From positions 1-20,454 of the IMG/VR virus record IMGVR_UViG_3300042331_000138: a stretch of DNA of 20,454 nt; one strand, 5' to 3'. How positions within the stretch are numbered: position 1 is the stretch's first letter; every line of letters starts with the position of its first letter. The DNA is from a virus. Position numbers and translations under genes: made by a program. The notes beneath the pieces are model-generated. The model had not been told where the DNA came from. It was given only the letters and a program-made list of their open reading frames with translations, and searched no databases. Shown here piece by piece: positions 2,118 to 7,784 of the stretch.

Positions 2118-4373
2118 ATGAACCTCGGACTTACCCCGCAAGACCCCAATGCCCCGCTCGATCCGCTGGCGAACACGGAGATGGCTATGTCGCCCACCGG
2201 CAACGCCCTGGCCGGCATGATGGACCCGGAAGGGAAGATCATGGACCGCGAAGACCCGGAGCTGTCGCGCTCGCGCGAAGCCCTGGTGAAGGCCTGGTCG
2301 GCAAATCTCAAGCAGGCCAAGGAGCGCTGGAAGGATGACTTCAAGCGCATGAGGTCCGATCAGGAGTTCGCCCGCGGCAAGCAGTGGCCGAATGACCCGA
2401 GCAACAGCAGCTATGTGGTGAACATCACCCTCCGCCACATCCAGCAGCGCGTGGCTGCCCTCTACGCCAAGAACCCCAAGGCGGTGGCCCGCCGGCGTGA
2501 GCGGCTCCTCAGCACCGTTTGGGACGGCAACAGCACGTCACTGAAGGCGGCCATGGAGGCCACGCAGATGGCCATGCAGGCCCAGGCGCCGCAGGTCGAC
2601 CCGATGACGGGCGCCATGACGCCGCCCATGCCGGTGCCGCCGGAGCTGCAGCAAGCCGCCCAGATGGCCGAGGCCGTCATCCAGGATGCCGCCCAGGTGC
2701 ACGACCAGATCCAGCAGCTGAACCGCATCTCGAAGACCCTGGAGATCCTCTACGACTACAACATCGCAGAGCAGCTGCACCCGTTCAAAACCATGATGAA
2801 AATGATGGTCCGGCGCAGCGTGACCACGGGCGTGGGCTACGTGAAGCTGGGCTTCCAGCGTCTCATGGAGGTGCGGCCCGAGGTCGAGGCCCGCATCGCC
2901 GACATCTCCAACCAGCTGGCCACCATGGAGCAGCTTTCGGCGGACATCGCCGATGGTGAGATCGACCACGACGCGGCCGCGGCCGAACAGCTGCGCCTCC
3001 TGGTGCAAGACCTCGAGGGCCAGAAGGACCACGTCGTCCGCGAAGGGCTCATCTTCGACTACCCAACGTCGACGTCGATCATCCCCGACCCGAAGTGCGT
3101 CCACCTGCGCGAGTTCCTGGGCGCGGATTGGGTGGCCCAGGAGTACATGCTGAGCTCTGACGAGATCAAGAAGATCTACAAGGTCGACGTCGGCAAGAGC
3201 TTCAATAGCTACAAGCGCGCGGACATCGGCCAGAACGTCGAGTCACTGGCGGCTAAGTACATGGGTGACAGCCTCAAGGACAGCGACAGCCTGGCCCAGG
3301 ACGTGGCCTGCGTGTGGGAGATCTACAACAAGACCGATGGCCTCGTTTACGTGGTCTGCGATGGCTACAAGGACTTCCTTCGTGAGCCGGCGGCGCCCGA
3401 GATCTACATGGAGCGCTTCTACCCCTGGTTCGCCTACGTGACGAATGAGTGCGACAACGAGAAGACCATCTTCCCGCCGTCCGACGTCACGCTCATCCGG
3501 CATCCCCAGATGGAGATCAACCGGAGCCGGGAAGGCCTTCGCGAGCACCGCGTGGCGAATCGCCCCCTGACGGTGACCGCCCAGGGCATGCTGGACGAGG
3601 ATGACCTCGCCAAGCTGCAGAACCGCCCCGCCAACGCGGTGGTGGAGCTGAACGCCCTCCAACCCGGCCAGAAGGTGGAAGACCTCCTGCAGCCTCTTCG
3701 GGGCCCTGGCATCGACCCCAATATGTACGAAACCAACGGCGCCTTCGAAGATATCCTGCGCTCTGTGGGCACCCAGGAAGCCAACCTGGGCGGCACGTCC
3801 AACTCGACGGCCACTGAATCGAGCATCGCCCAGGCCTCGATGTCGTCCTCCCTGGGCTCGAGCATCGACGACCTGAACGACGTCCTGACACAGCTGGCAC
3901 GGGCCGCCGGCCAGATCCTGCTCCTCAACGTGTCCAAGGAGACGGTCACCCAGATCGTCGGCCCGGGCGCGGTCTGGCCGGAGATGTCCGCCCAGGACGT
4001 GGCCCAGGAGATCTTCCTGGAGATCGAGGCCAATTCCACCGGCCGGCCGAACCAGGCGGAGGAGATCCAGAAAGCCGAAAAGATTGTGCCGTTGCTCCTG
4101 CAGATTCCGGGCATCAACCCGGAGTTCATCGCCAAGGAGCTCTTGCGCCGCATGGGCGATCGCTTCGACATGGAGGAGGCCTTCACGGCCGACCTGCCGT
4201 CGATCGTCGCTATGAACTCGGCCAAGGGGCTGTCTGCGCCCGGCGGTGGCGCGGCGCCGGGGGCCATGACACAGGGCCCCCAGGGCGCAGGGAACGCCCA
4301 GCAGCCGCCTCCGATGAACTCCCAGGGCGCCAGGCCCCCATCAGGGCCGCCCCAGCTGCCGACCATGCAGTAA
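2118..4373 (+). CDS. Portal protein
   Basis: The portal is the dodecameric ring at the unique capsid vertex through which DNA enters and leaves. The call rests on position (directly after the large terminase, before scaffold and capsid), length (about 751 residues, typical of long podovirus portals of the P22 type) and sequence character: an N-terminal segment with NPKAVARRRE near residue 120, typical of this portal group; a long helical central part; and a helical segment with GGTSNSTATESSIAQAS near residue 560, which resembles the tunnel and wing region of such portals. The last 50 or so residues are Gly/Pro/Gln-rich and probably disordered. Two starts are possible: ATG 2109, overlapping the terminase by 7 bases, or ATG 2118, which has AGGA 8 bases upstream and is preferred. 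Confidence 0.92.
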   Translation: MNLGLTPQDPNAPLDPLANTEMAMSPTGNALAGMMDPEGKIMDREDPELSRSREALVKAWSANLKQAKERWKDDFKRMRSDQEFARGKQWPNDPSNSSYVVNITLRHIQQRVAALYAKNPKAVARRRERLLSTVWDGNSTSLKAAMEATQMAMQAQAPQVDPMTGAMTPPMPVPPELQQAAQMAEAVIQDAAQVHDQIQQLNRISKTLEILYDYNIAEQLHPFKTMMKMMVRRSVTTGVGYVKLGFQRLMEVRPEVEARIADISNQLATMEQLSADIADGEIDHDAAAAEQLRLLVQDLEGQKDHVVREGLIFDYPTSTSIIPDPKCVHLREFLGADWVAQEYMLSSDEIKKIYKVDVGKSFNSYKRADIGQNVESLAAKYMGDSLKDSDSLAQDVACVWEIYNKTDGLVYVVCDGYKDFLREPAAPEIYMERFYPWFAYVTNECDNEKTIFPPSDVTLIRHPQMEINRSREGLREHRVANRPLTVTAQGMLDEDDLAKLQNRPANAVVELNALQPGQKVEDLLQPLRGPGIDPNMYETNGAFEDILRSVGTQEANLGGTSNSTATESSIAQASMSSSLGSSIDDLNDVLTQLARAAGQILLLNVSKETVTQIVGPGAVWPEMSAQDVAQEIFLEIEANSTGRPNQAEEIQKAEKIVPLLLQIPGINPEFIAKELLRRMGDRFDMEEAFTADLPSIVAMNSAKGLSAPGGGAAPGAMTQGPQGAGNAQQPPPMNSQGARPPSGPPQLPTMQ

Positions 4374-4377
4374 AGAC

Positions 4378-4406
4378 TAGACCCGTTATTCCCATTTGGG
4401 TATAAC
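4378..4406 (+). promoter_or_regulatory. Candidate sigma70-like promoter upstream of the scaffold/capsid genes
   Basis: In the 59-base gap after the portal gene, TAGACC (4378-4383, 4 of 6 matches to TTGACA) lies 17 bases before TATAAC (4401-4406, 5 of 6 matches to TATAAT). The gap is clearly more AT-rich than its surroundings. A promoter here would boost scaffold and capsid expression. The -10 box sits inside an inverted repeat, listed separately. Assignment is by consensus matching only. Confidence 0.35.
4385..4406. promoter_or_regulatory. Inverted repeat overlapping the candidate -10 box
   Basis: GTTATTCCC (4385-4393) and GGGTATAAC (4398-4406) are complementary at 8 of 9 positions with a 4-base spacer ATTT. 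As DNA this could be a protein-binding operator covering the candidate promoter; as RNA it could form a small hairpin before the scaffold ribosome-binding site (AAGGAG, 4422-4427). No T-run follows, so it is not a classic terminator. Confidence 0.4.
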
Positions 4407-4432
4407 GCTTCCAGCTTTACCAAGGAGCGACC

Positions 4433-5491
4433 ATGCCTGAGATTCCGGTTCCTAACCTCGACGCACCTACCGCCGCCCCGTCACCGGCACCCGCCTCAGA
4501 ACCGGCCGCTCCGAGCCCTACCCCTGACGCTACCGCGGCCCCGTCGCCCGCACCTGACGCTCCCTCCGCGGTTTCGTCGCCCGCAGACGCTACGCCGGCC
4601 TCGTCGCCCGGCACCACCGACCTGAAAACGGGTCTTCTCGCTGCGGTCAAGAAAGCCGTGGAGCCGAAGACAGAAGCCGTCGCCGGGTCGGAGCAGGCAA
4701 AGCCCGAGGAAGACCCTGCCAAGGGTTCTGAGCCGGACGAACTGCCGGAGAACGTCACACAGGAAGAGGCGAAGAATTACAGCCCGAAGGCCCAGAAGCG
4801 CATCTCCAAGCTGCTCCAGCAGCGCGAAGAAGCCAGGTCGATGGTCCGTGAAACTGAACCCTTCCGAGACTTCATGCGGGACAATGAGCTGGGTGCAGAA
4901 GACCTGGCGTTTGGCCTGCAGGCTCTCGCAACGCTCAAGAAGGGCGATTTCGAGGGCTTCCTTCAGCAGGTGCAGCCCTTCGTCCAGTTGGCGGAGGAAT
5001 ACACCGGGCGGCGCATCCCTGATGACCTGCGAGAGCAGGTGCGCCAGGGGCGAATGACGCCAGACGTGGCCGCCGCCTTAAGCCGGCAGCGGATGGACCT
5101 CGGACGAGCTCGTCAAGAACTTGACCAGCGCGACCAGTATGAGGGCCAGCGTCAAGAGGAAGAAGCTCGCGAGGCGAATCGCTCCGCCGTAGCCGTCTGG
5201 GAGCAGACCACCAAGCAGACCGACCCGGATTATGCCCGCAAACTGCCACTAGCGAAGGCGTTTGTTGCGCAGCTCAAGCAGGAATATGGCGACCCTCAGT
5301 CGGAGCAAGATAGCCGCACGATGGCCCAAGAGGCCTACCGCATGGCTGGCGAACAGCTGAAGCCATCCCTCCCGCCGCGAACGGCAACGCAAATGACCCC
5401 TTCTGGTGCGCAGCGCCCATCAAACCCGAGCGCGGTAGCATATCCCCGAAGCCTTGAGGACGTAGTCCGACATGGCCTCTCACGTAGGTAG
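4433..5491 (+). CDS. Capsid scaffolding protein (putative)
   Basis: A gene between portal and major capsid protein with this composition is usually the scaffold, the internal chaperone that guides prohead assembly and then leaves or is degraded. The 352-residue product has a Pro/Ala/Ser-rich N-terminus with imperfect PSPAPDA-type repeats (about 14-60), a highly charged, Gln/Glu/Arg-rich helical body (about 110-310, likely coiled coil), and a short basic amphipathic end (SLEDVVRHGLSRR, 340-352). In P22 the scaffold binds coat protein through a basic C-terminal helix-turn-helix, so this tail may do the same; that is inference. The start is ATG 4433 with AAGGAG 5 bases upstream. No sequence motif proves the function. 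Confidence 0.75.
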   Translation: MPEIPVPNLDAPTAAPSPAPASEPAAPSPTPDATAAPSPAPDAPSAVSSPADATPASSPGTTDLKTGLLAAVKKAVEPKTEAVAGSEQAKPEEDPAKGSEPDELPENVTQEEAKNYSPKAQKRISKLLQQREEARSMVRETEPFRDFMRDNELGAEDLAFGLQALATLKKGDFEGFLQQVQPFVQLAEEYTGRRIPDDLREQVRQGRMTPDVAAALSRQRMDLGRARQELDQRDQYEGQRQEEEAREANRSAVAVWEQTTKQTDPDYARKLPLAKAFVAQLKQEYGDPQSEQDSRTMAQEAYRMAGEQLKPSLPPRTATQMTPSGAQRPSNPSAVAYPRSLEDVVRHGLSRR

Positions 5492-5543
5492 ACGCGCTCC
5501 TCATCGGTGCGGCCGGCCAAGCCGGAGCCCATAGGAGACTAAA

Positions 5544-6605
5544 ATGACTGCTCTTAGCACTGCCCAGTTGACGAACATCGCCAACGGCGCCCTCGACTAC
5601 TACTTCGGCACGCCGGATTGCTACGCCCAGACCATCCAGAACAAGCCCCTTCTGAAGGCCCTCGAGGGCAAGAAGAAAACCTTCCCCGGTGGCAAGGGTG
5701 ACATCTCGATCGCGCTCCAGGGCGTGTTCGGCGCCGGCGGCGTGGCCGACTCTTTGAAAGGTTATACAAACAACGACACTGTCACGTTCATGAACCCGGC
5801 GAACATCGTGCGGGCTAATTGGCCCTGGCGTGAAATGCACATCGGTATGTCGATCTCCGGCACCGAGCTGAAGATCGATGGCCTGAGCGTCAGCGACGAG
5901 ATGGGCATCGAGACGTCCAACCACTCGCAGCGCGACCTCACCGTCCTGGTGAACCTGCTCGACAACAAGCTGGCCGACATGGCTGAGCAGTCCGCCCGTT
6001 CGCTGAACAGCCTGCTGTGGGGCGATGGCCTTGCGGATCCGCTGGCCCTGCAGGGCATCCGCGCCCTGGTCACCGACGACCCGACTGTCGGCACCGTTGG
6101 CGGCATCGACCGCGCCACGGCGTCGAACGCCTGGTGGAGGAACCACTCCGACGTGGCCGCTCCGATCACCTCGTTGCCGACGATGGGCGGCGCTCTGATC
6201 GAGCACATCCAGAAGACCTACCGTCAGCTGACCCGCTTTGGCGGCCGCCCGACGCATGCCTTCTGCGGTTCGGACTTCCTGGCCGCCCTCGAGAGGGAAC
6301 TCCGTGCGAACGGTAACTACTCGATGCAGGGCTTCTCGTCCGGCAAGGATGTCTCGGTTGGCGCCATCAACCACATGGGCCTGACGTTCGAGTATGACCC
6401 GACGCTTGATGATCTGGGTTTCAGCAAGCGTTGCTACCTTCTCGATCTCCAGAACATCTTCATCCAGGCCATGGATTCGGAATGGCGCCGGCGTCACAAC
6501 CCGGCCCGTCCCGAGAACGCGTTCGTCTACTACACCAGCCTGACCTACACCGGCCAGCTGGTGGCGAAGCAGCTGAACTCGTCTGCAGTGCTTGCCATCG
6601 CCTAA
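5544..6605 (+). CDS. Major capsid protein (HK97-fold type)
   Basis: This protein builds the icosahedral head. At 353 residues it has the length and feel of the podovirus capsid family: an N-terminal helix region (1-45), a stretch rich in Gly and beta strands (46-110), a helical region (130-160, DLTVLVNLLDNKLADMAEQS) that fits the HK97 spine helix and P-domain, and a C-terminal segment, DLQNIFIQAM (301-310) to YTSLTYTGQLVAKQLNSSAV (330-349), typical of these coats. No N-terminal delta domain or fused protease is apparent, in line with a separate scaffold gene. It starts at ATG 5544 with TAGGAGA (5532-5538) upstream. It is followed by a strong hairpin, as is common after capsid genes. Confidence 0.88.
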   Translation: MTALSTAQLTNIANGALDYYFGTPDCYAQTIQNKPLLKALEGKKKTFPGGKGDISIALQGVFGAGGVADSLKGYTNNDTVTFMNPANIVRANWPWREMHIGMSISGTELKIDGLSVSDEMGIETSNHSQRDLTVLVNLLDNKLADMAEQSARSLNSLLWGDGLADPLALQGIRALVTDDPTVGTVGGIDRATASNAWWRNHSDVAAPITSLPTMGGALIEHIQKTYRQLTRFGGRPTHAFCGSDFLAALERELRANGNYSMQGFSSGKDVSVGAINHMGLTFEYDPTLDDLGFSKRCYLLDLQNIFIQAMDSEWRRRHNPARPENAFVYYTSLTYTGQLVAKQLNSSAVLAIA

Positions 6606-6618
6606 CCCGCGGTGAGCA

Positions 6619-6659
6619 TGCGGTGGGAGGGGCTTCCTTGGTGCGTTCCTCCCACCGCA
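6619..6659 (+). terminator. Strong hairpin after the capsid gene (terminator or mRNA-processing hairpin)
   Basis: TGCGGTGGGAGG (6619-6630) and CCTCCCACCGCA (6648-6659) are perfectly complementary over 12 bp, with two further G-U pairs possible at the top. The 88-base gap between the capsid gene and the next gene is the largest in the rightward block. No run of T follows, so termination would be partial or factor-dependent, or the hairpin may protect capsid mRNA. T7 also has a leaky terminator, Tphi, just after its capsid gene. Confidence 0.6.
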
Positions 6660-6685
6660 CCAATCATCACCAAGGACACCAAGGA
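6635..6685 (+). promoter_or_regulatory. Hairpin loop complementary to a tandem repeat carrying the next RBS
   Basis: The loop of the hairpin holds TCCTTGGTG (6635-6643). Its exact reverse complement, CACCAAGGA, occurs twice in direct tandem at 6668-6676 and 6677-6685; the second copy contains the start of the AAGGAG ribosome-binding site (6681-6686) of the gene at 6694. Pairing would form a pseudoknot that hides or competes for this site. The complementarity is seen directly; the regulatory role is inferred. Confidence 0.45.
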
Positions 6686-6693
6686 GAGAACAC

Positions 6694-7077
6694 ATGGCAG
6701 AAATGGATTGGGTAGAGTGCGAGGTCATGATCGGTGGCGACATCCGCATGATCGCCTACCGGGGCTCCACTGAGCCCCTCAGCATTCCTGAAATCGCTGT
6801 TATCCGTGAGCTTCACGGCGAAGACAGCGTGCGGAAGATGAAGTACGTGAAGACCACCGAGACGACGCCTAGCGAGGAGAAGAACCGCCTCCTGGGCAGG
6901 TATTCCGCCGGCGTCGTCAACACCGCGTTCCCGGGCCGCGCACCGCAGATGCACATGAAGGCCGACGATCGTCCGTCCAAGGAGATCGAGGGCGGCGTGC
7001 GCAAGGTGCAGCGCGCGGGCACGAAGCAGACGGCCGCGGAGCCGTTCATCCCCTCGCTTGACGAAAGCACAGAGTAA
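6694..7077 (+). CDS. Hypothetical protein between capsid and adaptor genes
   Basis: I do not recognise this 127-residue protein. The first half (1-60) looks folded, with alternating beta strands (VECEVMIGGDIRMIAYRG) and one helix (SIPEIAVIRELHG). The rest is polar, charged and probably disordered. Small genes in this position often encode head-decoration, head-tail joining or capsid-stabilising proteins, but nothing here proves it. The start ATG 6694 is preceded by AAGGAG at 6681-6686, which forms part of the tandem repeat complementary to the upstream hairpin loop. Its stop TAA (7075-7077) is fused to the next ribosome-binding site (TAAGGAG), so expression of the adaptor is likely coupled to it. 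Confidence 0.85.
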   Translation: MAEMDWVECEVMIGGDIRMIAYRGSTEPLSIPEIAVIRELHGEDSVRKMKYVKTTETTPSEEKNRLLGRYSAGVVNTAFPGRAPQMHMKADDRPSKEIEGGVRKVQRAGTKQTAAEPFIPSLDESTE

Positions 7078-7088
7078 GGAGTCCAACC

Positions 7089-7784
7089 ATGGCAACGGGT
7101 GTCCAGCTTTCCAAGCTCGTGAAAGATCTCCGCGCAGAATGCGGGCACTCGCTTGCCGTGGCCCAGGGCCAGGCGACAGAGGAAACCCTCCGCTACCTGC
7201 TCGCACGACAGCAGGAGGAACTCTACGAAGGCTATGAGTGGTCCTTCTTGAAGATCCACCGCTCAATCCCCTCGAGGGCCGGCGAGCGCTACTACAACTA
7301 TCCGGCTGATCTTCCTTTTGAGCGCGTGACCCACGTCTGGAGCCACACAGTGGATGGCACGGATTGGGTGCCCCTCACAAAAGGTATCGGCCCGCCGATG
7401 TACGCCGCCATCAATAGCGACAAGGGTCAGACATCCTGGCCGCCGCGCAATTGGGACCACGCCGAGACAAACCAGATTGAGATCTGGCCGATGCCAGATC
7501 GCGACACCGGCGAGGTCATCGTCTACGGCATGAAGCCCCTGGCGCCGCTCCTGAAAAGCGAGGACGTCTGCACCCTGGACGACAAGGCGATCGTGCTCTT
7601 CACGGCCGTCGAGGTGCTGATGAAGACCGCGCCCAAGGAAGCCGAGGTCAAGTCGCAAAAAGCGCAGCGGGTGCTGCAGCGGCTTCTCGCCCAGCAGGGC
7701 GCGCGCAAGCGCATGTGGACGTCTCTCACGGGCCAACGGACCGCGCAGCCCATCGTGGGGCTCGATTATATCCCGAGGTACTGA
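7089..7784 (+). CDS. Head-tail adaptor protein (putative)
   Basis: The 231-residue product has the layout of adaptor proteins found between capsid and nozzle genes in many podoviruses (such as phage SU10-type adaptors or T7 gp11-like proteins). It starts with a helix containing LVKDLRAECG, then a helical segment RYLLARQQEELYEGYEWSF (about 38-56), then a beta-rich region with a Tyr-Pro motif (YYNYPADLP) and EIWPMPD, and ends with a helix and a short tail. The N-terminal W-containing pattern and the strand motif following it are characteristic by eye. The protein would form a ring under the portal to attach the tail. Its stop overlaps the next start (ATGA). It is preceded by TAAGGAG, 8 bases from the ATG. 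Confidence 0.65.
   Translation: MATGVQLSKLVKDLRAECGHSLAVAQGQATEETLRYLLARQQEELYEGYEWSFLKIHRSIPSRAGERYYNYPADLPFERVTHVWSHTVDGTDWVPLTKGIGPPMYAAINSDKGQTSWPPRNWDHAETNQIEIWPMPDRDTGEVIVYGMKPLAPLLKSEDVCTLDDKAIVLFTAVEVLMKTAPKEAEVKSQKAQRVLQRLLAQQGARKRMWTSLTGQRTAQPIVGLDYIPRY

Follow-up and report, generated by a model that had tools for sequence, protein, structure and literature searches.

A putative pseudoknot between the major capsid gene and the following gene in an uncultured phage family

Phages need hundreds of capsid subunits versus few neck proteins, all from one late mRNA, and the locus described here raises the question of whether an RNA element directly behind a major capsid gene could set the output of the gene that follows it. 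The locus lies in an uncultured virus record of 20,454 bases, which was analysed whole and is called the window. The gene order is terminase, portal, scaffold, capsid, a 127-aa gene, and an SU10-type adaptor, with an integrase on the opposite strand; the scaffold label is assigned by position. The 127-aa protein has a confident alpha/beta model for residues 1-90. It belongs to no Pfam or PHROG family, its model has no convincing PDB match, and a comparison of the model with BFVD returned uncharacterised phage proteins only. An earlier note on this DNA described a hairpin after the capsid gene whose loop is complementary to two tandem copies of a short sequence, and proposed that a pseudoknot hides the ribosome-binding site of the 127-aa gene.

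The 12-bp stem, the loop, the tandem copies, the AAGGAG, and the ACCAAGGAG at 4419-4427, ahead of the scaffold gene, all lie to the base where that note placed them (Table 1). The stem, P1, begins 13 nt past the capsid stop and encloses a loop of 17 nt; on folding it grows to 15 pairs through weaker inner pairs of 6631-6633 with 6645-6647, two of which are G.U. The linkers from the stem to copies 1 and 2 are 8 and 17 nt long, and copy 2 merges into the AAGGAG of the gene at 6694. The 5' arm of an outer helix, P0, lies 6-10 nt past the capsid stop. With Rfam covariance models, window positions 4300-7100 gave no hit at E<=1, and neither the window nor 11 related loci had one at the gathering threshold.

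Table 1. Positions of the element and the flanking genes in the window
Feature	Positions	Strand	Basis	Remarks
Major capsid gene	5544..6605	+	ORF; PHROG major head protein, E 1.8e-45	TAA stop 6603-6605
Outer helix P0, 5' arm GGTGA	6611..6615	+	minimum-energy fold	5 bp with 6667-6671 (TCACC), overlapping copy 1
Stem P1, 5' arm TGCGGTGGGAGG	6619..6630	+	sequence, fold	12 bp with 6648-6659
Loop segment TCCTTGGTG	6635..6643	+	sequence	complementary to both downstream copies
Stem P1, 3' arm CCTCCCACCGCA	6648..6659	+	sequence, fold	exact reverse complement of TGCGGTGGGAGG
Copy 1, CACCAAGGA	6668..6676	+	sequence	loop pairing here leaves the Shine-Dalgarno uncovered
Copy 2, CACCAAGGA	6677..6685	+	sequence	head to tail with copy 1; AAGGA of the Shine-Dalgarno would be covered on loop pairing
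Shine-Dalgarno AAGGAG of the next gene	6681..6686	+	sequence	7 nt upstream of ATG 6694
Next gene, putative target of control	6694..7077	+		conserved protein of 127 aa, encoded between the capsid and adaptor genes; homologues at the same place

On the window sequence alone the loop match is modestly unlikely, with P about 0.01, or 0.001 with both copies. When the letters of the 17-nt loop were shuffled, 0.96% of trials produced a complement of at least 9 nt within the 34 nt downstream, and 0.13% a match to the 9-mer that occurs twice. The match is also the longest (9 nt) among 180 hairpins found in the window, five others reaching 8 nt. A match in a single sequence is suggestive only, so the weight is carried by the relatives.

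The nearest relative is a sister species (L204), represented by four contigs that are mutually 99.1-99.4% identical and whose capsid is 78% identical to that of the window. It was found by a profile search, exact window peptides having missed it. The sister gap reads GGGGCGGCAGG-CTTCCTTGGTGC-CCTGCCGCCCC-GACCACTCG-CACCAAGGA-ACCAAGGAG. The loop segment TCCTTGGTG is unchanged inside a 14-nt identical block, copy 1 is conserved at 9/9 positions, and copy 2 at 8/9. Taken together, and with boundaries set beforehand by the coordinates of the earlier note, the loop and copy 1 are identical at 18/18 nt, versus 30/60 in the remaining gap (Fisher p 3e-5); identity is 48-63% at third codon positions and 48% in the scaffold-capsid gap. 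With the stems aligned at the loop, 3 of 11 pairs differ, all of them compensated and none uncompensated. The earlier note would have been contradicted by a stem kept and a loop match lost; in the nearest relative the loop and repeats are kept and it is the stem that is rewritten, with compensation. The P1a-loop-P1b-copy order of an H-type pseudoknot, in which the helices interleave, is present in both phages. At the level of sequence, this comparison shows the stem, a constraint on the loop and copies, and the interleaved arrangement.

Additionally, P0 has a 7-bp counterpart in the sister (GCGAGTG/CACTCGC), and the helix of loop and copy 1 extends there to 11 bp. The sister loop, at 12 nt, leaves little room for a helix of 9-10 bp, which counts against a pseudoknot. 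The helix of loop and copy is invariant within the window's own lineage, where no covariation is seen because just one sister lineage is known. Scanning viral contigs for TCCTTGGTG followed by ACCAAGGAG gave 45 stretches, a number near chance by rough estimate, and an 11-bp stem around the loop occurs only in the sister's four contigs. As a separate observation, the portal-scaffold gap is 83% identical between window and sister, versus the 48% of the scaffold-capsid gap, and it is before the scaffold gene that an imperfect hairpin, CGTTATTCCCATTTGGGTATAACG (window 4384-4407), is nearly unchanged in the sister; this hairpin could be a promoter, an operator, or an RNA element.

A second clade has the same layout in unrelated letters. 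Its members are L106, L108, L112, L118, L127, L134, L142, L157, L221, L237, L241, and L254, and the capsids of the aligned members are 74-90% identical to L134. The capsid stop is followed by a first hairpin, which displays GCACTC in its loop (mostly TCGCACTCC), then by another hairpin, two complements, and the start codon. The complements are full or partial, such as GGAGTGTGA...GAGTGTGAGGAAT; the loop TCGCACTC faces two copies of GAGTGYGA, the second copy lies at the Shine-Dalgarno, and the sequence is unrelated to that of the window. In L254 the copies stand in tandem (GAGTGTGAGAGTGTGA), as they do in the window. The 9-mers compared in this clade were set by hand because MAFFT misaligned the copies, and picking them by eye biases the figures toward pairing. 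On these 9-mers, 88.9% of cells pair between loop and copy 1, four pairs are changed on both sides, and one pair varies as G-C, G.U, and A-U. The covariation score of loop and copy 1 was reached in 2/500 shuffles and in 0 slid registers. Copy 2, likewise on hand-set 9-mers, pairs in 84% and its covariation is weaker. The earlier note proposed to look for covariation in this gap of related phages. For the stem it is seen as compensation between window and sister; for the loop helix the second clade is suggestive, on the hand-set 9-mers. Comparison with this clade also shows that the arrangement recurs, as sequence, with other letters. The start region of the second clade, ATGCACTT, is complementary to the copies as well, so that loop and start codon may compete for them. 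In the second-clade loci L231, L233, L235, L237, L241, and L254, the start region ATGCA(C/T)TT of the post-capsid gene shares loop letters.

The wider family was assessed with capsid relatives collected from viral contigs, and 55 lineages were defined as 90% capsid clusters of the loci gathered by then. Perfect stems of 8 bp or longer occur behind the capsid stop in 45/55 lineages versus 16% of control stretches, and stems of 10 bp or longer in 69% of lineages versus 3% of controls. Post-capsid gaps fold with a median z of -3.9, other gaps in the same phages with -0.8. The stem sequences vary widely among lineages, and the hairpin is absent after the capsid gene in L099, L111, and L131. In a first comparison, covering 47 distinct relatives with a best capsid match of 57% and not including the sister, the window alone had a loop match, which by itself would have contradicted the earlier note; in most other lineages the hairpin is present without one. 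Since many relatives have hairpins that lack a loop match, the pseudoknot is not family-wide. The reading of the earlier note stands in part: the loop:repeat pairing looks like an evolved pseudoknot, as judged from the sister and the second clade.

When the most stable hairpin of each gap was used, there was no family-wide signal of loop matching; members of the second clade carry a pair of hairpins, of which the one nearer the capsid gene matters, and this explains the absence. The most-stable rule was then replaced by a fixed rule, adopted once the second clade had been seen, that picks the 5'-most hairpin. With lineages defined as 80% clusters, one 5'-most hairpin for each, and loops of at least 6 nt, complementarity of loop and downstream sequence exceeded that of shuffled loops at p<0.05 in 9/18 lineages. 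Loops matched their own downstream sequence better than swapped ones (Wilcoxon 4e-4; 0.0017 excluding the window's lineage), and the Fisher value without the window's lineage was 3e-5; several of the significant lineages are second clade, and the result depends on the choice of the first hairpin. At 70% clustering seven lineages were left and the Fisher value without the window was not significant (0.24).

Several loci in the family have features of their own. Single loop matches adjoin the Shine-Dalgarno in L021 (CTCGCGTT/AACGCGAG) and L024 (GCTGTTG/CAACAGC), and these are leads. At L005:4108-4740 an inserted small HNH endonuclease-like gene separates the capsid stop from the ancestral hairpin; a further hairpin that came with this gene (CTTCCTGTTAGG/CCTAACAGGAGG) directly masks the gene's Shine-Dalgarno, as in phage Aeh1 mobE. 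L037 and L064 are both on contig IMGVR_UViG_3300021082_000020 (94,958 bases), where two capsid genes of the window's family lie ~45 kb apart; joined phages, a duplication, and an assembly artefact are the alternatives for this contig. Bacterial genomes yielded one distant relative only, L165.

There are several other readings of these data. The hairpin may be an ordinary post-capsid structure, that is, a partial terminator, a Rho-linked 3' end, or an RNase barrier that keeps capsid mRNA abundant, with the loop match due to chance and to a slipped duplication of the Shine-Dalgarno region. This fits the strong hairpin that most lineages have, mostly without a loop match, the U-rich tail in 16/45 hairpin lineages, which may be terminators, and the P of about 0.01 for the match by itself. 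It is nevertheless judged unlikely, since it leaves unexplained the unchanged loop and copy 1 in a diverged gap and the two-copy layout in another clade, and since window and sister have no U tract. An intrinsic (Rho-independent) terminator in the window was rejected as a candidate: the stem is followed by CCAATCATCACC (in the sister by GACCACTCGCAC), with no U tract, and it is absent from the terminator scan. The suggestion in the earlier note that the element also sets transcription is not supported, given the same lack of a U tract behind either stem.

A reading with alternating nested helices, in which an open stem is required for loop and copy 1 to pair, in the manner of an attenuator or antiterminator, draws on the predicted nested fold of L134, where the loop segment pairs with copy 1 and the first hairpin is not formed, and on the 11-bp loop helix of the sister. 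In the window, however, the stem is the stronger helix by a wide margin, at -25.3 kcal/mol versus -15 to -16.3 for the loop helix, it forms first in transcription, and nothing downstream resembles a terminator to switch, which makes this reading quite improbable. It is more improbable still, to the point of being hardly credible, that the loop has a distant target, the ACCAAGGAG of the scaffold gene, or is a protein-binding operator. The scaffold Shine-Dalgarno does match the loop (-14.0 kcal/mol), and in the sister it lies in the loop AACCAAGG of a perfect 8-bp hairpin with arms GGCCAGCT and AGCTGGCC; however, this reading leaves copy 1 unexplained, and also the second clade, where the complements found lie just downstream of the hairpin. 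The scaffold hairpin of the sister falls in the L204 stretch 7381-7560, and its loop could kiss the loop of the post-capsid hairpin.

From the sequences compared, the element has the look of a genuine RNA switch and not of a coincidence. Pseudoknot energies were computed with a 9.6 kcal/mol penalty and loop-length (steric) limits. The pseudoknot is predicted over the nested fold by 5.3 kcal/mol in the window (the best of 130 gaps) and by 1.4 in the sister; with the steric limits, these energies do not separate the family from shuffles. In the window the loop helices with copies 1 and 2 are nearly equal (-18.6 and -18.9 kcal/mol), and in the sister the helix with copy 1 is the stronger. It is considered fairly probable that a cis-acting pseudoknot tunes translation of the next gene relative to the capsid, which would be a new form of a known kind of control. 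The hairpin loop would pair with either downstream copy to form an H-type pseudoknot; on copy 2 it would cover the Shine-Dalgarno of the 127-aa gene, and on copy 1 it would leave it free. In this way the output of the downstream protein could be set relative to the very abundant capsid protein. The trigger would probably be ribosomes finishing the capsid gene, whose footprint should reach the base of the structure. P0, which overlaps copy 1, is estimated on geometric grounds to be incompatible with either pseudoknot. Its 5' arm would be within reach of a terminating ribosome, so capsid traffic could open P0 and permit the pseudoknot, which would lower or spare the downstream gene according to which copy wins. 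That both helices coexist, that ribosome access is controlled, in which direction, and what copy 1 contributes are all inferences from this arrangement.

A broader proposal is offered tentatively and is itself rather doubtful. An uncultured-phage family would carry a fast-evolving post-capsid switch, in which the loop chooses between a decoy and a Shine-Dalgarno copy and ties the output of the following gene to translation of the capsid. At least two lineages would have this switch, in unrelated sequences, and in the second it would be a three-way switch, as the copies there can also pair with the start codon region. A pseudoknot at exactly the capsid/neck boundary, in two lineages and with different letters, would offer a translational route to setting a protein ratio.

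To our knowledge, very few phage pseudoknots that control translation have been described. No such element was found in the open literature, which is weak evidence, as most subscription papers are outside that coverage. The T-phi terminator of phage T7 after gene 10 and the terminator of filamentous phage after gene VIII are post-coat terminators with U tracts that act on transcription. They resemble the window in the place of the hairpin, immediately behind the major coat gene and between abundant and scarce products, but the hairpin of the window has no U tract. RNA structure hides the ribosome-binding site of phage T4 e, soc, 49, and I-TevI and of Aeh1 mobE (PMC3014915). These are simple helices, whereas the loop of the window would pair outside its own stem. 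The nearest element in kind among phages is the pseudoknot of T4 gene 32 mRNA, which lies upstream of the start codon and controls translation; it is located 67 nt upstream, nucleates gp32 binding, and is itself unpaired with the Shine-Dalgarno (PMC3014915). A 2010 review named it as possibly the sole viral pseudoknot in translational autoregulation (PMC3014915). The window differs from it by the loop match to the Shine-Dalgarno region. In repZ, the loop of an upstream hairpin pairs just before the Shine-Dalgarno of the next gene, and the upstream frame, a leader peptide, ends beside the structure; the pseudoknot activates translation, and an antisense RNA competes for the loop. This pseudoknot, of the repZ (repA) gene of IncI-alpha/IncB/IncL-M plasmids, is nearest in logic to the window (Asano and Mizobuchi 1998, as cited in PMC10724649). 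In repZ, as in the reading proposed for the window, a loop pairs ahead of the next Shine-Dalgarno and a reading frame ends beside the structure, but in the window that frame is the capsid gene and the loop has two target copies.
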